Part shown: positions 38,599-49,234 of the stretch, one piece after another
Numbering within the stretch: position 1 is the first letter of the stretch
Layout: each line of letters begins with the position of its first letter
Origin: Myxococcales bacterium
GTDB taxonomy: Bacteria; Myxococcota; B64-G9
Length of the DNA stretch: 64,000 nt
Reading direction: 5' to 3'
NCBI GenBank assembly: GCA_012798435.1
Contig: JAAZNF010000009.1
Coordinates: forward strand, 54,208-118,207
Made by a program: the position numbers and the translations under genes
The notes under the pieces: generated by a model
What the model saw: the letters and a program-made list of their open reading frames with translations, nothing else
Database searches by the model: none
What the model was told of the DNA's origin: nothing

Positions 38599-38650
38599 TG
38601 GATTTGCATATAACACCATGAAAACAAAAAACAATATATTAAATTCCACA

Positions 38651-38696
38651 GGTGCCAGGCACCCCGGATTCACCGGATTCCACGGGGACAGGCCCC
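38651..38696 (+). repeat. Palindrome plus dispersed repeat before the second CotH gene
   Basis: GGTGCCAGGCACC (38651-38663) is a palindrome with 6-bp arms around a single A. GGGGACAGGCCCC follows at 38684-38696. Both sit in an AT-rich gap between the CotH genes and would be translated if an upstream ATG at 38618 were used, which argues for the start at 38729. Confidence 0.85.
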
Positions 38697-38728
38697 AGGA
38701 TAAGCCATTGATTAATAAAGAAAGACGC

Positions 38729-40540
38729 ATGAAATTCGGCGGCCTTGGCGGGTGCCTTTGTGGATTTTATTGTTTTATTTCTGCATGTTGCGCGATTTTT
38801 ATCGGTTGCGCGCCGGCGGGTGACATGCCCCCGGAATTTGACCGGGTATTCGATTCGAACCGGATCGCGACCTGGGAGATCGACTTTTCCATGGATGACT
38901 GGCGGCGGCTGTGGACGTTTTCTGAAGAGCCTGTCCCGGTTGCGCTGGCGGTGGACGGCCAGCCGGTGGAAGGCGCGGCCGCGAGGCTCTCCGGTTCCGT
39001 GTCCAACGCCAAGACCTCGCTCGTGCTGCGCTTGGGCGAAGAGGTCCGCGGCCAGGGATTTTTTGGCGTTCGCCGGGTGTACCTGCACCGGCCCGGTGAC
39101 GACCCATCGCTCATCCGAGAGGTGCTCGCGCTTTTACTGATGCGCGAGGCGGGGATCCCGGCGCCCCGCGCCAGCCTGGTGTGGGTGGTGAAGAACGGCC
39201 TGCCCTGGGGCATCTTCACTCTCGTCGAGGCGGTGAACGGCGCCTTCCTGGAAGACCGCTTCGGGGACAGCAGCGGAAACCTCTATCGGCTCGAGCGGGT
39301 GTTCGAGGACGAGCGCGACCCGCAACCCACGCTGGAAGACCTGGGAGACGACCCGGCCGCCTACCTCACCACGCCGCCCATCTACGAGCTGCGCACCAAC
39401 GAAGAAGACCTGCGCGGGCGGGAGCTCGCCGACCTTGTCGATTTCATTCGCGAATTCTCCCGGACACCGCAGGAGGAACTTGCGGCCTGGCTGTCGGATC
39501 AGCTCGACCTCGACGGGTGGCTGCGGCTGCTCGCGGCCCTGACCTGGCTTTCCGACCTGGATTCCTATCCCGGACTCGGCGGGAACCTCTTTTTATATCG
39601 CTGGCCGGGCACCGGCGCCGAACGCCCGGGCCGGCGTGTCGCGTTCGTCCCCTGGGACCTGCGCGCGGCGTTCGGGTTGTTCGAGCCGCTCGATTGCGAT
39701 CCGTCGGACGGGGACTGTCTCGATCTCGCCGGGCACCGCGCCTGCCGGGACGTCACCGCCGACGATCTCCTCGCCTGGCCTGCCGGCTCGCCCACCTGCG
39801 GAAAGTTCCGGCCGCTCGTCGATCGGCTGCTCGAGCTGCCTGCCGTGCGCGCGCGGTATCTCGTCCATCTTTCCGAGCTGATGACCGGGCCTTTTTCGGG
39901 CACGCATGTCGAGGAGGAGGCGCGTCGGCTGTACCGGATGCTCGAGCCGTTCGTCGTGCTCGATCCTTCTCTGGAGTACGCCCTCGACCAGTGGCGAGCC
40001 GCCCTGGACGAGGACATTCCGCTATCGCCTCCTGCGGAGGACGTGAGCCAGCGCAAGGACGATTCGCCCCGTTGCCAGAACGGCCTCGACGACGACGGCG
40101 ACGGGCTCGTCGATGCGGCCGACCCCGGCTGCGAAAGCGCACTCGACGGCGACGAGTCGGGTTCGCAACCGACCGGTTGCAGCGACGGCGCTGACAACGA
40201 TCGTGATGGCTGGCGCGACGGAGCCGATCCGGACTGCATCGCTGGACGGGAAGAGTCCGGCACGGGCGCGACCGCTTGCAACGACGGCCTCGACAACGAC
40301 CGGGACCGGGACTGGGACGGCGAGGATCCCGGCTGCGACAGCGCCTCCGACCCGACCGAGCACTCCGGCGCCCGTTCGTGCCGGGACGGCCTCGACAACG
40401 ACCAGGACGGCTGGTCCGACGGGGCCGACCCGGATTGCTGGCAGGCGAAGGACCCGCGCACCTTCGTCCCGGGGCTCGTCCGTTTCGCGCTCGAACGCGA
40501 GCGGCGCTTGCGGGCCGAGCTGGAAGGGGCAGGGGAGTGA
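38729..40540 (+). CDS. CotH-family lipoprotein, copy 2, with C-terminal Asp-rich repeats
   Basis: A 603-residue protein starting at the ATG at 38729, giving a lipoprotein signal (FISACCAIFIGC, Cys at about 28); an upstream ATG would translate repeat DNA. CotH-like motifs: TSLVLRLGEEVRGQGFFGVR, VYLHRPGDDPSLIREVLAL, WGIFTLVEAVNGAFLEDRFG, GNLYRL, and GNLFLYRW ... RVAFVPWDLRAAFG for the catalytic/metal region. The last 150 residues hold four units of the type CxDGxDNDxDGxxDxxDPxC, typical of calcium-binding metal-loop repeats that span the envelope in Myxococcota. The two CotH genes are diverged and probably arose by old duplication. Confidence 0.85.
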   Translation: MKFGGLGGCLCGFYCFISACCAIFIGCAPAGDMPPEFDRVFDSNRIATWEIDFSMDDWRRLWTFSEEPVPVALAVDGQPVEGAAARLSGSVSNAKTSLVLRLGEEVRGQGFFGVRRVYLHRPGDDPSLIREVLALLLMREAGIPAPRASLVWVVKNGLPWGIFTLVEAVNGAFLEDRFGDSSGNLYRLERVFEDERDPQPTLEDLGDDPAAYLTTPPIYELRTNEEDLRGRELADLVDFIREFSRTPQEELAAWLSDQLDLDGWLRLLAALTWLSDLDSYPGLGGNLFLYRWPGTGAERPGRRVAFVPWDLRAAFGLFEPLDCDPSDGDCLDLAGHRACRDVTADDLLAWPAGSPTCGKFRPLVDRLLELPAVRARYLVHLSELMTGPFSGTHVEEEARRLYRMLEPFVVLDPSLEYALDQWRAALDEDIPLSPPAEDVSQRKDDSPRCQNGLDDDGDGLVDAADPGCESALDGDESGSQPTGCSDGADNDRDGWRDGADPDCIAGREESGTGATACNDGLDNDRDRDWDGEDPGCDSASDPTEHSGARSCRDGLDNDQDGWSDGADPDCWQAKDPRTFVPGLVRFALERERRLRAELEGAGE

Positions 40541-40545
40541 CACGC

Positions 40546-41358
40546 ATGGATGAGGCGAAGGTCGAGAAAGCCCTGCGCGTCGCCCGGGAGGCCGCCCGGC
40601 GCGCGGGAGAGATCCAGCGGCAGCGTCTGCGCCAGGGCCACCGGGTCGAGCACAAGGGCACCTTCAACCTGGTCACCGAGGTGGACCGGTTGTGCGAGGA
40701 GGCCATCCTGGAGATCCTGCGCGCCGAGTTTCCCGGAGTGCCGGTGCTGGCCGAGGAGAGCCGGCCGGACACGCGCGCGGAAGGCCCGTTGTGGGTCGTC
40801 GATCCGCTCGACGGCACCACCAACTATGCCCACGGCTATCCCATGTTCTGTTGCGCCATCGCGCTCGTGGAAGGCGGCCGGCCGCTCGCCGGCGCGGTGT
40901 ACGAGCCGCTGCGCGACGAGATGTTCAGCGCGCGGCGCGGGGGCGGTGCCACCCTCAACGGCGCGCCCATCCGGGTGAGCCGCACCGCCGAGCTTTCCAA
41001 TGCGCTCCTGGCCACCGGGTTTCCATACGATCGGCACCAGCAGCCCGAAACCAACCTGGACCGCTTCTGCGCGCTCACCCTGCTCACGCGCGGGGTGCGG
41101 CGGGGCGGCTCGGCGGCCATGGACTTGTGTCTGACGGCCTGCGGGCGGCTCGACGGCTACTGGGAGATCCGCCTGCGGCCCTGGGACGTCACCGCCGGCG
41201 CCTTGATCGTGGAAGAGGCGGGCGGGCGTGTCACGGACGTGGCGGGGCGGCCGTACGATTACAGCGGCGCCTCCACCCTGGCTACGAACGGCCTGTTGCA
41301 CGAGATATTGCTGGCCGCTCTGGCGCAGCCCGCCCCGCACGGGCGGTGCTTCGGCTGA
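40546..41358 (+). CDS. Inositol monophosphatase family protein
   Basis: A 270-residue enzyme of normal IMPase length. The three metal motifs are present: VLAEESRPD (Glu, about 66-74), WVVDPLDGTTNYAHGYP (about 85-101, the DPxDGT signature) and LRPWDVTAGALIVEEAGG (about 209-226, the WDxxAG signature). HKGTFNLVTEVDRLCEEAI provides the first Asp. It hydrolyses inositol phosphates or a related sugar monophosphate with Mg; some relatives act on NADP or PAP. It starts 5 bp after the CotH gene, so may be co-transcribed with it, without an obvious functional link. Confidence 0.93.
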   Translation: MDEAKVEKALRVAREAARRAGEIQRQRLRQGHRVEHKGTFNLVTEVDRLCEEAILEILRAEFPGVPVLAEESRPDTRAEGPLWVVDPLDGTTNYAHGYPMFCCAIALVEGGRPLAGAVYEPLRDEMFSARRGGGATLNGAPIRVSRTAELSNALLATGFPYDRHQQPETNLDRFCALTLLTRGVRRGGSAAMDLCLTACGRLDGYWEIRLRPWDVTAGALIVEEAGGRVTDVAGRPYDYSGASTLATNGLLHEILLAALAQPAPHGRCFG

Positions 41359-41582
41359 GGGAAAGCGGCCGCGCGAACGGTTGCACCAAACGCAACTTCC
41401 CGCGCCAGCTCTATCGGCATGGCGGAAAGTCGCTCACAGAACGTACATTCGCCTGGTCGCGCTGGCTCTTGCCGCTCCGGCTTCGTCCCCCTGGAGCCGG
41501 CTGTTGCCTGTGGCCGCAGGTTTTTGTTGCAGTGGAAGGCCGTCGTGCGTTAAAGGTGAAAACGTATGTATTGGAGGACGCT
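41359..41582. other. Intergenic leader upstream of the selenium cassette
   Basis: No gene is supported in the first 220 bp of this 374-bp gap. The sequence turns less GC-rich from about 41515 (runs such as GTTTTTGTTGC, AAAGGTGAAAACG) just before the UGA-containing small frame at 41583. A promoter for the downstream operon is expected here, but no confident -35/-10 pair is claimed. Confidence 0.5.
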
Positions 41583-41681
41583 GTGAAGGAATTGTGGAAG
41601 AAGTGCAACTGACGCGCTTTCCGGGAGGCAGGTCTGCCTCCGAGGAAGGCGCGCCCCCACCCTGAGCGCCCGCCCGCCTGA
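41583..41681 (+). CDS. Probable small selenoprotein with in-frame UGA (Sec), 32 residues
   Basis: A GTG at 41583 preceded by GGAGG at a 5-bp spacing opens VKELWKKCN, then TGA at 41610-41612, then RAFREAGLPPRKAR and a Pro/Arg tail to TGA at 41679-41681. Conventional translation stops after nine residues. The first TGA is followed at once by a hairpin that matches the E. coli fdhF SECIS (see 41613-41653), so the TGA can be read as selenocysteine, giving Cys-Asn-Sec, a plausible redox pair. An in-frame GTG at 41556 would add nine residues (VKTYVLEDA) but lacks a ribosome site. The genes that follow make and handle selenophosphate. Alternatively the element is a SelB-responsive leader like that of E. 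coli selAB. Confidence 0.6.
41613..41653 (+). promoter_or_regulatory. Bacterial SECIS-like hairpin directly after the UGA
   Basis: Starting with the base after TGA, ten base pairs form (CGCGCTTTCC with GGAAGGCGCG, one G-U), then a one-by-two internal loop, then seven pairs (GGAGGCA / TGCCTCC region) closed by the loop GGTC at 41631-41634. The apical sequence GCAGGTCTGC is the same as that of the fdhF SECIS as I recall it, and the 18 nucleotides between UGA and the GGUC loop are the same number. SelB reads this loop to deliver Sec-tRNA. Chance occurrence of loop identity, spacing and a 17-bp stem together is very unlikely. Confidence 0.8.
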
Positions 41682-41732
41682 GCGCCTCGCGCCGCGGGCG
41701 GAGGCGATCCGTTCGCGGACAGGAGGCGCACG

Positions 41733-43013
41733 ATGGCGACCGATTACCGACCGATGTGGAAGGAGCTGGGCCTCGATCTCGAGGCGCACGACGCGCTGCT
41801 CGGCGTCTTGGGACCGCTGTACCAGCAGACGTTCATGTCCCAGCCGGACCGGCCCGAGGGCATGAAGTACTTCGACTTCGTGATGAGCGAGGTCCATGGG
41901 CTGCGCATCCAGGAGCTGGTGGAGGCCAAGAAGGCCGGCCGCAAGGTGGTGGGGGCGTTCTGCACCTTCGTGCCCGAGGAGATCGTGCTGGCCCTGGATG
42001 GCATCCTGGTCGGCTTGTGCGCCGGGGCGGAGTTCGCCACCGCCGAGGCCGAGAAGCTCTTGCCGCGCAACATGTGCGCGCTGATCAAGGGGGCCTTCGG
42101 CTTCGCGCTGGCGCGGGTGTGCCCCTACCTTCTGGCCAGCGACGTCATCGTGGGCGAGAACACCTGTGACGGCAAGAAGAAGAGCTACGAGATCTTCAAG
42201 GACCTCGTGGCGCGCTTGTACACCATGGACCTTCCCCAGACGAAGAGCGCCGAGGGCCGGGCCCTGCTGCGCGCAGAATTCTCGCGCTTCGCCTCGTTTC
42301 TCGAGAAACTGACCGGCAAGAAGCTCACCGCCGCCGCGCTGAAGAAGGGCATCGCCGCCGTGAACGCCAAGCGCGCGGTCATGCACCGGCTGGCGAAACT
42401 GCGCGCCGCCGACCCGGCGCCGATCTCGGGCCTGGACGGGCTGCTCGTCAACCAGGTGTACTTCTACGACGATCCCGCCCGCTTCACCGCCTCGGTGGCC
42501 AAGATCTGCGACGAACTCGAGGCGCGCATCGAGCGCAAGGCCGGGGTGGCCCCCCTGGGCACGCCGCGCATCCTGGTCTCGGGCTGTCCCATGGCGGTGC
42601 CGAACTGGAAGCTTCCCGCCATCGTGGAGCGCGCCGGCGCCGTCATCGTGGGCGAGGAGTCGTGCGTGGGCGAGCGCGGCACCCAGGCGCTCACCGCGGA
42701 TAGCGGGCCCACCAAGGACCAGCTCCTCGACGCCATCGTGGAGCGCTACCTCAAGATCGACTGCGCCATCTTCACCCCCAACGAGTCGCGCCTCGAGCAC
42801 ATCCTCTCCATGGCGCGCTCGCTGAGGGCCGACGGGGTGATCCACTACGGGTTGCAATTCTGCTCGCCCTACCAGATCGAGGCCGGGCCGGTGGAGAAGC
42901 GGCTGGAGAAGGAGGGCCTGCCGACGCTGCGCATCGACACCGACTACGGGCAGGAGGACGTGGGCCAGATCCGCACCCGGGTCGAGGCCTTCGTCGAGCG
43001 CCTGCGTGGGTAG
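41733..43013 (+). CDS. yjiM: Double-cubane-cluster reductase (YjiM/2-hydroxyacyl-CoA dehydratase family)
   Basis: A 426-residue protein with AGGAGG before the ATG. It belongs to the HgdB/BadD/YjiM superfamily: VVGAFCTFVPEEIVLA (about 70-85), RVCPYLLASDVIVGENTCDGKKK (near 128-150), VSGCPMAVPNWKLP (about 286-299), GEESCVGERG and HYGLQFCSPYQIE. The conserved cysteines would hold a [8Fe-9S] double-cubane cluster that, after ATP-driven electron injection, reduces small unactivated molecules. The next gene encodes the cognate ATPase. Together with SelD and YedF downstream, a role in reductive sulfur or selenium chemistry is often proposed but not proven. Confidence 0.88.
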   Translation: MATDYRPMWKELGLDLEAHDALLGVLGPLYQQTFMSQPDRPEGMKYFDFVMSEVHGLRIQELVEAKKAGRKVVGAFCTFVPEEIVLALDGILVGLCAGAEFATAEAEKLLPRNMCALIKGAFGFALARVCPYLLASDVIVGENTCDGKKKSYEIFKDLVARLYTMDLPQTKSAEGRALLRAEFSRFASFLEKLTGKKLTAAALKKGIAAVNAKRAVMHRLAKLRAADPAPISGLDGLLVNQVYFYDDPARFTASVAKICDELEARIERKAGVAPLGTPRILVSGCPMAVPNWKLPAIVERAGAVIVGEESCVGERGTQALTADSGPTKDQLLDAIVERYLKIDCAIFTPNESRLEHILSMARSLRADGVIHYGLQFCSPYQIEAGPVEKRLEKEGLPTLRIDTDYGQEDVGQIRTRVEAFVERLRG

Positions 43014-46861: not shown

Positions 46862-48043
46862 TCAGCGCTCGACGGCGAGCGCCGCGCCCTGGCCGCCGCC
46901 GATGCACAGGGTGGCCAGACCCTTCTTGGCGGAGCGCTTCTGCATCTCGTGGAGCAAGGTGACCAGGATGCGCGCCCCGGAGGCGCCGATGGGGTGGCCG
47001 AGCGCGATGGCGCCGCCGTTGACGTTGGTTTTTTGCGGATCGAGCTCGAGCTCGCGCATGACCGCCAGGCACTGCGCGGCGAAGGCCTCGTTGGCCTCCA
47101 CCAGGTCGAGGTCGGCCACCCGCCAGCCGGCGCGCTCCAGCGCCAGGCGCGAGGCGGGGATGGGCCCGGTGCCCATGAAGGCCGGATCGACCCCGGCGCA
47201 GGCATAGCTTACGATCCGCGCCAACGGGGCGACTCCCAGCTCGCGGGCGGTGTCCTCGCGCGCCAGCACGAAGGCCGCCGCCGCATCGTTGATGCCCGAG
47301 GCGTTGCCGGCGGTCACCGTGCCGCCGTCCTTCTTGAAGGCGGGCTTGAGCGCGGCCAGCTTCTCCATGGTGGTGTCGCGCGGGTGCTCGTCGGTGTCGC
47401 ACAGCTTGGGCTCGCCCTTCTTCTGCGGGACCGGGACGGCCACGATCTCGTCCTGGAACCTCCCCGCGTGGATGGCGGCGCGGGCGCGCTTCTGGCTCTC
47501 CAGGCCGAAAGCGTCCTGCTGCTCGCGAGAGAGCTTGTACTTCTCGGCCACGTTCTCGGCGGTGATGCCCATGTGGTAGCCGTAGAAGTGGTCCCACAGC
47601 CCGTCGTGGATCATGAGATCGAGCGCCTCGGTGGCGCCCATGCGCGCGCCCCAGCGGGCGTTCATGAGGCCGTACGGTGCCTGGCTCATGTTCTCGGTGC
47701 CGCCGGCCACCACCAGGCGGGCGTCGCCGGACTTGAGCGCCTGGGCCGCCAGCATGACGGCCCGTAGACCCGAGCCGCACACCATGTTCACGGTGACGCC
47801 GGTCTTCTCCTTGGGGATGCCGGCGTGGATCTGGACCTGGCGGGCGATGTTCTGGCCCACGCCGGCCTGGAGCACGCAGCCCAGGATCACCTCGTCGATG
47901 CGGGCCGGGTCGACATGGGCGCGGGCCATGGCCTCGCGCACGGCGATCTCGCCGAGCTTCACCGCCGGGACGTCCTTGAACATCCCCCCGAAGCTCCCCA
48001 CCGCGGTGCGCACCGCCGACAGGATGACGATGTCGTTCTTCAT
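46862..48043 (-). CDS. Acetyl-CoA acetyltransferase (thiolase) A
   Basis: A 393-residue thiolase of biosynthetic length. The nucleophilic Cys is in [13 protein letters not shown] (about residue 89), [20 protein letters not shown] carries the His of the catalytic triad (about 349), and [14 protein letters not shown] the final Cys. It condenses two acetyl-CoA or cleaves acetoacetyl-CoA. It lies 12 bp downstream of a second thiolase on the same strand, so the two are co-transcribed; no dehydrogenase of the same pathway is adjacent. Confidence 0.93.
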
Positions 48044-48055
48044 GGTCGGTTCCTT

Positions 48056-49234
48056 TCAGGGACGCTCGACGATCAGGCTCACCGCCTCGCCACCGCCGAG
48101 GCACAGCGAAGCCATGCCGCGCCGCAGCTTGCGCTGGGCCAGCGCGTGGAGCAGCGTGACCAGCACCCGGCAGCCGCTGGCCCCGATGGGGTGGCCCAGC
48201 GACACCGCGCCGCCGTGGACGTTGAGCCTTTCTTCGGGGATGTGCAGGGTGCGCATGACCGCCACGGTGGACACCGAGAAGGCCTCGTTCACCTCGTGCA
48301 GATCGATGTCCTCGACCTTGAGACCGGCCTTGGCGAGAACCTTGGGGATGGACAGGATGGGAGTGACCAGCACGTCCAGCGGCTCCTGGGCCGCGGCACC
48401 CTGGGCCACCACGCGGGCCAGCACCGTGGCGCCGGCGGCGCGCGCCCGCTCGGGGGTGGTCACCACCACTGCCGCCGCGCCGTCCGAGATCTTGGAGCTG
48501 TTGCCGGCGGTCACCACCCCGTCCTTCTTGAACGCCGGCCGCAGGCTCGCGAGCGCCTCCAGGCTGGTCTCGCGCGGCACCTCGTCCTTGGCGAAAGATT
48601 CGACCTTGCCCTTGCCGGCCTGCACCGGCACCGGCACGATCTCGTCGGCGAAACGTCCCTCGCGCTGGGCGAGGAGCGCCCGGTCGTAGCTCTGCTTGGC
48701 GAAACGGTCCATCTCCTGGCGGCTCACCGAGAACTTCTTCGCGATCAGCTCGGCGGTGTTGCCCATGTGGAAGTTGTTGTTCACGTCCCACAGCCCGTCG
48801 TACACCATGCCGTCGAGGATCTCGGTGTTGCCCATGCGGGCGCCAGCGCGCATCTTGGGGACCAGGAAGGGCGCCAGGTTCATGTTCTCCATGCCGCCGG
48901 CCACCACCACCTCGGCGTCGCCGCACTGCACCGCGTGGGCGGCCAGCATGACCGCCTTCAACCCCGAACCGCACACCTTGTTGATGGTGAGGCACTCGAT
49001 CTTCAGGGGGAGCTTCCCCCATAGCACCGCCTGACGGGCGGGGTTCTGCCCCATGCCGTGCGGCAGCACGCAGCCCATGATGACCTCGTCCACCTGCTCC
49101 TCGGCGAACTTCGAGCGCCGGATGGCCTCGCGGATGACGATGGCCCCGAGCTCCTTGGCCGGCACGCTCTTGAGGGCGCCACCGAAGTCCCCGATGGCCG
49201 TACGACAGGCCGCGACGATGACCGCTTCGCGCAT
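48056..49234 (-). CDS. Acetyl-CoA acetyltransferase (thiolase) B
   Basis: A 392-residue thiolase: catalytic Cys in KVCGSGLKAVMLAAH (about 88), [21 protein letters not shown] with the His, and LCLGGGEAVSLIVERP with the second Cys. It is clearly homologous but not identical to the thiolase that follows; the pair probably differ in acyl-chain preference. It heads the two-gene unit with a good ribosome site (GGAGGAACGC). Confidence 0.93.
   Translation of the reverse strand: MREAVIVAACRTAIGDFGGALKSVPAKELGAIVIREAIRRSKFAEEQVDEVIMGCVLPHGMGQNPARQAVLWGKLPLKIECLTINKVCGSGLKAVMLAAHAVQCGDAEVVVAGGMENMNLAPFLVPKMRAGARMGNTEILDGMVYDGLWDVNNNFHMGNTAELIAKKFSVSRQEMDRFAKQSYDRALLAQREGRFADEIVPVPVQAGKGKVESFAKDEVPRETSLEALASLRPAFKKDGVVTAGNSSKISDGAAAVVVTTPERARAAGATVLARVVAQGAAAQEPLDVLVTPILSIPKVLAKAGLKVEDIDLHEVNEAFSVSTVAVMRTLHIPEERLNVHGGAVSLGHPIGASGCRVLVTLLHALAQRKLRRGMASLCLGGGEAVSLIVERP

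Follow-up and report, generated by a model that had tools for sequence, protein, structure and literature searches.

A UGA-bearing leader ahead of a bacterial selD operon is a likely ribosome-read sensor of selenocysteine supply

Introduction

In attenuators of the trp and his type, translation of a leader open reading frame (ORF) past a sensor codon selects between an antiterminator and a terminator, and the operon is on when charged tRNA is low. In translational attenuators, a parked ribosome frees a ribosome site, and in the case of the B12 riboswitch on metE the supply of a cofactor shuts off the cofactor-free isozyme. The selenocysteine (Sec) insertion element (SECIS) of fdhF carries a GGUC loop at 18 nt from the UGA and a bulged base below the loop. 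A SECIS-like element 5' of selAB in E. coli was reportedly described by Thanbichler and Boeck in 2002 and is said to act via binding of SelB, with neither a UGA nor a leader ORF. To our knowledge, bacterial selenium sensing and the exchange of a selenoenzyme for its Cys copy are largely open.

In Methanococcus, HrsM represses Cys isogenes at adequate selenium, and a YedE family gene and other transporter genes are up on selenium depletion (PMC11097638, excerpt). HrsM is an archaeal LysR-type protein repressor, and how selenium is sensed there is not known according to the same excerpt. In the fdhF Cys/Sec switch of Treponema primitia, the transcript of the Cys formate dehydrogenase drops with trace selenite (PMC6288185, excerpt).

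Here we describe an RNA leader at 41573-41732 of a 64,000-nucleotide stretch of a Myxococcales genome (assembly GCA_012798435.1, contig JAAZNF010000009.1), the whole of which is called the window below. Like the trp and his attenuators, it combines a leader ORF, a sensor codon, exclusive folds and an operon predicted to be on at low supply. Unlike them, its sensor is a UGA with a SECIS-like hairpin of its own, low supply would lead to termination at the UGA and not to a stall, and read-through to a second stop (stop 2) would mask the antiterminator arm. With the E. coli selAB element it shares a SECIS-like hairpin ahead of a Sec-pathway operon and a predicted feedback by Sec supply, but the window leader has a UGA, an ORF and stop 2. 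The HrsM system works through a protein repressor in archaea, whereas here an RNA leader would be read by the ribosome; the T. primitia switch, as far as the excerpt describes it, likewise lowers the Cys isozyme with selenium. The B12 riboswitch on metE differs in being a ligand-binding aptamer that involves no translation, and what is shared is that supply silences the cofactor-free isozyme.

Among the open-licence papers that matched our search terms, no title or abstract opening dealt with a Sec-sensing attenuator. We think it likely that the leader represents the first ribosome-read Sec attenuator. It would belong to a class of RNA leaders, spread over several phyla, that gauge Sec-tRNA through read-through of a SECIS-tagged UGA instead of an aptamer or a protein and that run a whole selenium-starvation regulon. 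In this reading the regulon comprises a Cys-for-Sec switch (formate dehydrogenase, HdrA) together with selB, selD, csd, yedF and perhaps yedE. If this is true, it is the decoding of the 21st amino acid itself that serves to sense it, and the device is to a stop codon what trp attenuation is to a sense codon. The proposal would also give concrete target operons, explain UGA-bearing leaders missed by gene callers, and provide a genome-readable marker of selenium-starvation genes, including a likely role in selenium metabolism for the double-cubane reductase.

Results and Discussion

Leader and selenium operon of the window

The leader is made up of the following parts, where R1 is a model built from relatives (see below) and SD stands for Shine-Dalgarno.

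41573..41577, plus strand: leader ribosome site GGAGG, 5 nt ahead of GTG 41583
41583..41681, plus strand: leader ORF with GTG start, in-frame UGA 41610 and second stop UGA 41679
41610..41612, plus strand: sensor codon UGA, predicted Sec; TGA in 30 of 32 R1 hits read, and TGA by selection in 21 leaders
41613..41653, plus strand: SECIS-like hairpin of 17 bp, apical loop GGUC at 41631-41634, 18 nt past the UGA
41670..41677, plus strand: segment P, CCGCCCGC, last codons ahead of stop 2, able to pair with R
41682..41688, plus strand: anti-SD GCGCCUC, immediately 3' of stop 2; the fold pairs 41723-41729 with it
41691..41720, plus strand: R:S hairpin within the SD-hiding stem, R being GCGGGCGG at 41694-41701
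41721..41726, plus strand: AGGAGG, the SD of the first gene in the operon; the anti-SD hides part of it (mean probability unpaired 0.33 in the fold)

An earlier reading of the letters alone (the sequence-only reading) had proposed a small selenoprotein or a SelB-controlled leader here, and the parts it named were all recovered. The GGAGG site, GTG 41583 and TGA 41610 are present, and so is the 17-bp hairpin with its GGUC loop 18 nt past the UGA. The predicted read-through frame of 32 residues with Cys-Asn-Sec, MKELWKKCN-U-RAFREAGLPPRKARPHPERPPA, ends at TGA 41679, and the distance of about 50 bp to a selD-holding operon corresponds to 51 nt between stop 2 and ATG 41733. The fold of 41606-41665 reaches -32.4 kcal/mol against -21.2 (sd 2.7) in shuffled sequences (z -4.1; none of 200 as good), and the whole 5' region of the window folds moderately better than its shuffles (z -2.7). 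Bacterial SECIS elements are recognized by a stable hairpin directly 3' of an in-frame UGA and by a loop G at a set distance from it, and the window has both (GGUC, 18 nt). The fdhF-type bulged base below the loop was absent from the window stem on inspection; one base is unpaired at that position in the consensus of 17 leaders.

The leader in the window had no Rfam match at gathering score, and in six relatives the sole such match was a tRNA-Sec downstream of the leader and no leader family. A scan of window positions 41350-41760 revealed no sigma-70-like promoter and no terminator-like site inside the leader. Two overlapping terminator-like sites lie at 41498-41521, between the upstream gene and the leader.

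The leader is followed by an operon on the same strand.

41733..43013, plus strand: double-cubane cluster protein (DCCP, HGD-D family); PF06050 381 bits, NF040772 453 bits
43017..43772, plus strand: likely DCCP reductase/activator of the BadF/BcrA ATPase family; PF01869 149 bits
43777..44856, plus strand: selD, selenide water dikinase; TIGR00476 357 bits, sole match over cut-off in the genome
44853..46007, plus strand: aminotransferase class V of the cysteine desulfurase / Sec lyase type; PF00266 308 bits
46010..46618, plus strand: yedF, selenium metabolism protein; TIGR03527 193 bits
46617..46844, plus strand: putative Se/S carrier (DUF3343) with a putative start codon; PF11823 67 bits

DCCP matches PDB entries 6eno and 7yyl at E 1e-135 or better and has been described as provisionally linked to selenium metabolism (PMC10418091, excerpt). 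The genes yedF, DUF3343 and yedE have been tied to selenium through gene context (PMC5322559, excerpt). The window genome (5.05 Mb, 129 contigs) holds selA (539 bits), selB (271 bits), tRNA-Sec (75.6 bits) and selD (357 bits), each over cut-off; the sequence-only reading had staked its case on selA, selB and selC, and none is missing. Around the operon, naming by eye indicated a protein with repeated CxDGxDNDxDGxxDGxDPDC-like segments (38618-40540), which an inositol-monophosphatase-like ORF (40276-41358) adjoins. Two adjacent thiolase-like genes on the opposite strand (46862-49234), also named by eye, lie just beyond the selenium operon.

Leaders of the same plan in other genomes

Among 58 genomes, that of the window included, the leader is shared by G001, a member of another genus of the window's family, where it precedes a gene of the cysteine desulfurase type. 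G001 keeps the UGA, the spacing, the loop, the frame, the codon count past the UGA and stop 2. Comparison of the 17 stem pairs shows A-U replaced by U-A beside the loop, U-A by G-C elsewhere and one U-G by C-G, with two mid-stem pairs lost. G003 and G004, which belong to this family as well, have DCCP behind a leader of the same plan whose peptide is unrelated.

An alignment scan with DCCP yielded named loci that are the best 80 of 131, and together with the window, G001, G003 and G004 the upstream regions of 84 loci were examined for a UGA that has a start codon before it, a suitably spaced hairpin after it and another stop further on in the same frame. The stop-plus-hairpin arrangement occurred with TGA in 21 regions, with TAA in one and with TAG in none, under a stricter criterion chosen after a looser first one had given 16, 5 and 1, respectively. 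Four loci unlike the rest (L068, L083, L089, L103) were dropped by eye, L102, missed by the script, was added, and L088 is the same locus as G003. After these edits the plan was found in 17 distinct loci. Their records' own labels include Eisenbacteria, Deltaproteobacteria, Syntrophaceae, Syntrophorhabdus, Syntrophus, Spirochaetes and Armatimonadetes, so that the plan, judged by labels, occurs in bacteria of several phyla. Common to these leaders are a short ORF, a UGA, a hairpin, a second stop and a hairpin hiding the ribosome site of the next gene. The loop lies 17-18 nt past the UGA in the criterion-selected leaders, a distance partly set by the criterion.

Among the named DCCP loci (best 80 of 131), 14 have the leader, or 15 when L118 is counted, in which a similar element is located further upstream; 65 of the 80 lack it. 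As selB exceeded its cut-off in 16 of 17 other leader genomes (that of L118 included) and also in 9 of 11 leaderless genomes, selB alone does not predict the leader.

In one order, that of G205, model R1 picked up 41 leaders, which are spread over 22 of the 46 genomes and have E values down to 1e-28; nine of the 41 had built the model, and 32 lie beyond it, several of them weak. The codon at the sensor site in the 32 R1 hits read was TGA in all but two, one with TAA and one with CGA, and a Cys codon replaced it in none of them. In 392 Spirochaetota genomes R1 gave 9 hits, three of them previously known, in 8 genomes, and it matched three of ten leaders tried outside the model (L081, L048, L076). 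R1 does not match the window leader, and the window type and the R1 type are therefore joined by plan and first gene, not by sequence.

Genes behind the leaders

Several genes downstream of R1 leaders were named by eye. R1 leaders precede DCCP and also a second double-cubane gene with csd and yedF, as well as selB, identified by model in L179 and by eye in L190. Formate dehydrogenase FdhA scores 808 bits and exceeds its cut-off, whereas the best NCBIfam match of the HdrA-like proteins is below its cut-off. Further genes behind R1 leaders, all with scores short of the respective cut-offs, encode a MetN/MetQ-like transporter, which is accompanied by DUF169, a DoxX-type protein together with a rhodanese resembling a selenoprotein family, and an MtaA/CmuA-like methyltransferase. 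A spirochaete yedE (TIGR04112, 500 bits) has a weak partial R1 hit (34 bits, 90 nt) 231 nt upstream. The controlled genes fit a lack of the sensed amino acid: Cys isozymes, selB, csd and yedF in relatives, and selD in the window.

HdrA and FdhA were sought in 20 of the 22 R1-positive genomes (G235 and G238 left out). All nine leader-linked HdrA-like copies carry Cys with no internal stop; five are the first full gene, two stand behind FdhA and two behind selB. Seven genomes with a leader-linked HdrA also hold a 72-75% identical paralog with one in-frame TGA. Such a TGA (Sec) is present in 13 of 16 unlinked close paralogs, the other three having Cys; Cys HdrA without an R1 leader is found at G260:C52, G240:C31:30384 and G201:C145. 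The Sec of HdrA (PTNDCSM-U) aligns on the Cys of the leader-linked copies (PTNDCSM-C) in the eight aligned of the 13. The association of leader and Cys in HdrA (Fisher p 1e-4) comes from related genomes and hence from non-independent observations. The count excludes G202:C183, whose leader is on a different contig, G260:C48, where the contig breaks off ahead of the site, three copies that begin past it (G260:C31, G250:C150 and G201:C170) and rows below 68% identity.

FdhA follows the same pattern. The leader-linked copies have Cys in two of two cases (G234, G232), as does the 5' part in G202, and the leaderless close paralogs have Sec (one TGA) in eight of eight, at the same site in the four aligned (Fisher p 0.02, again from related genomes). 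Excluded were the G202 pieces on C97 and C183, G202:C112 and G201:C379 (site not covered) and rows below 70% identity; a distant FdhA (46%) at G250:C219 has neither stop nor leader. One spirochaete with two R1 hits has Cys FdhA and Cys HdrA, each behind its own leader. The leader thus precedes genes that the cell requires when Sec runs short, which makes read-through the likely off state.

Alternative folds of the leader

The 17 distinct loci plus L137, L141, L142 and L143 gave 21 leaders for folding. In all 21, the fold 3' of stop 2 pairs the SD of the next gene wholly or partly (probability unpaired 0.00-0.43), and in the window, too, the ribosome site is sequestered, as it can be in peptide-leader attenuators in place of an intrinsic terminator. 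In many of them, including many from the order of L109, the inner part of this fold is a G+C hairpin with a U-run behind it.

A second helix was indicated by RNAalifold, between the codons ahead of stop 2 and the terminator-like hairpin. In relatives P comprises roughly the last 16 nt ahead of stop 2 and can pair, with covariation, with the loop and arms of that hairpin, so that the two folds are mutually exclusive, as in trp attenuation. Compared with shuffled P, the P:RS pairing reached a combined z of -7.0 over the 21 leaders, with 8 of 21 at f <= 0.05. Taken singly, 13 of 21 were non-significant, among them the window (z +0.24), and G003 and L130 were no better than shuffles either. P is the best partner of R among sliding windows in five of 21 leaders and among the top three in 12. 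In the window, P and R can form a G+C helix of 8 bp that stops 2 nt short of stop 2; G001 has exactly this helix, and L052 has it with one G-U.

In 12 aligned leaders 84.8% of P:RS cells are paired, against 32.5-50.0% in slid controls. On 44 distinct rows, which are related, the value is 81.1% against 34.5-55.9%; since the helix had been traced on one of the aligned sequences, the contrast with the slid control comes out too favourable. This alignment had been fitted to the SECIS and the terminator, not to the P:RS helix. Cells with both sides changed numbered 33 versus 17.9 in shuffles (0/500), and the covariation score was 0.219 versus 0.166 (0/500); two of five measures, both-sides-changed pairs (178/500) and pair types (22/500), were not clearly above shuffles. 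For the SECIS and terminator helices, to which the alignment was fitted, 92.6% of cells are paired and both sides changed in 14 of 17 pairs. Positions of the S arm covary both with the bases they face in P and with those in R, a pattern expected of bases shared between two exclusive folds; at the two S-arm positions that vary most, pairing with P is missing in 15 and 12 of the 44 rows. Covariation of exclusive folds is thus found in the relatives, and the window taken alone gives no significant signal.

Forcing P:R left the SD more open than masking P in 16 of 21 leaders. It did not open the SD in the window (0.32 vs 0.33) or in four other leaders.

Proposed mechanism and alternative explanations

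We consider it quite likely that the leader at 41573-41732 is a ribosome-mediated attenuator sensing selenocysteyl-tRNA, off when Sec is plentiful and on when it is scarce. With plentiful Sec, translation would continue past UGA 41610 as far as stop 2 at 41679, and with P masked by the ribosome the hairpin hiding the DCCP-selD ribosome site would form. With scarce Sec, the ribosome would leave at UGA 41610, and P would be free to pair with R, turning the operon on. In relatives with a U-run after the R:S hairpin, control would be by transcription attenuation. The window copy has no U-run at this place, and control there would thus be at translation of the first gene. The proposal draws on the parts themselves, their conservation in G001, the covarying exclusive folds of relatives, the full Sec gene set and the kinds of genes behind the leaders; we infer that Sec is inserted at the UGA, that the ribosome masks P, and which way control runs. 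For the window copy, support is good for the type of device and weaker for its sign. Recoding of fdhF in vivo amounts to 30-40% and depends on selenium (PMC4513850, abstract), and such a level would likely be enough for a graded switch.

The sign bears on the best surviving alternative, that read-through to stop 2 opens the hairpin and so switches the operon on at high Sec, in the manner of translational attenuators whose parked ribosome frees a ribosome site. This was the version favoured first, on account of the SD-hiding hairpin, and was demoted after the P:RS helix and the Cys isozymes were found. A ribosome footprint extends about 12 nt past the stop. In the window the anti-SD follows stop 2 directly and would be covered as well, and a mask to stop 2 +12 frees the SD to 0.95 (0.88 in G001, 0.97 in L052, 0.98 in L062), which favours the opposite sign for the window copy. 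In L095, L102, L107 and L109, which have the terminator-like hairpin, the SD-hiding stem begins roughly 8-11 nt downstream of stop 2; the same mask leaves SD access at 0.00, and one 3 nt longer gives 0.00-0.43. A ribosome at stop 2 would thus cover P and hardly touch the stem, in agreement with read-through as the off state. The opposite sign would moreover leave the covarying P:RS helix useless and would place the Cys versions of Sec enzymes, which the cell requires when Sec runs short, under the wrong control, and we regard it as unlikely.

Far less probable is that SelB with Sec-tRNA binds the hairpin and blocks expression independently of leader translation. The GGUC-loop hairpin and the Sec genes would suit such a block, but the kept UGA, the leader ORF and the in-frame stop 2 would be needless, even though the R1 hits read include the TAA and the CGA copy. 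The selAB-like label of the sequence-only reading accordingly holds for the sensor role and fails for the likeness itself, as the UGA in a short ORF and stop 2 belong to the device.

A true small selenoprotein gene, whose peptide has a function of its own, is equally improbable and was rejected because peptides diverge between lineages while the plan persists. The leader peptide reads MKELWKKCN-U in the window, M..IANIFIPLG-U-..YREPGWLPVVTVFAVSPP in one order, and DLRTRR-U or ISQLMT-U in others; Cys-Asn-Sec is common only to the window and G001 among the leaders read. Within the one order, the frame and a tail (AVSPP) are kept past the UGA, and 35 of 39 leaders have stop 2 at +63. Nonsynonymous changes in that order reach 0.43 of expectation before the UGA and 0.30 in the last codons, rough values from related pairs. 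These features would suit a selenoprotein, and the synonymous bias before the UGA and near stop 2 also fits translation past the UGA. However, the same codons are constrained by RNA pairing, and up to three R1 hits per genome stand ahead of different operons. Of the two options left by the sequence-only reading, the leader or sensor is thus upheld by the regulon, the plan across phyla and the covarying fold in relatives, and the small selenoprotein is not. The conservation check it had called for came out positive in G001 for UGA, hairpin, loop and spacing, and negative for the peptide flanks between lineages. Pro-Pro occurs among the last four residues ahead of stop 2 in 15 of 21 leaders, where a slow stop is possible.

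A chance hairpin or ordinary GC-rich intergenic structure, to which the GC-rich region and the z of only -2.7 for the whole 5' region might point, was rejected and has practically no probability given the conservation in G001, the covariation and the 32 R1 hits beyond the model-building sequences.

Observations on individual leaders

In one spirochaete genome, separate leaders (L210, L215) stand on Cys FdhA and Cys HdrA about 3 kb apart, and L185 has tandem leaders (201-345 and 538-682) ahead of a single HdrA gene. The short frames after the leaders of L168, L173 and L175 start like DCCP (MSDYT.MW, MSNYTQMW, LLNYTQMW) and end after 25-35 codons, which would fit a joint duplication of the leader and the DCCP start with re-use for other genes, or a loss of DCCP. 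The leader copies at L191:2823-2962 and L195 have TAA or CGA where the UGA would be expected, and the L191 leader is predicted to be always on.

A tRNA gene lies between leader and selB at L179:568-660 and L190:3391-3482, called by ARAGORN as tRNA-Cys with anticodon GCA at both loci. According to Rfam, the L179 tRNA is a tRNA-Sec (47.4 bits, cut-off 47), which would make it a Sec-type tRNA with a Cys anticodon beside a SelB gene and a Cys HdrA. The title of one paper reportedly concerns Cys recoding with SelB.
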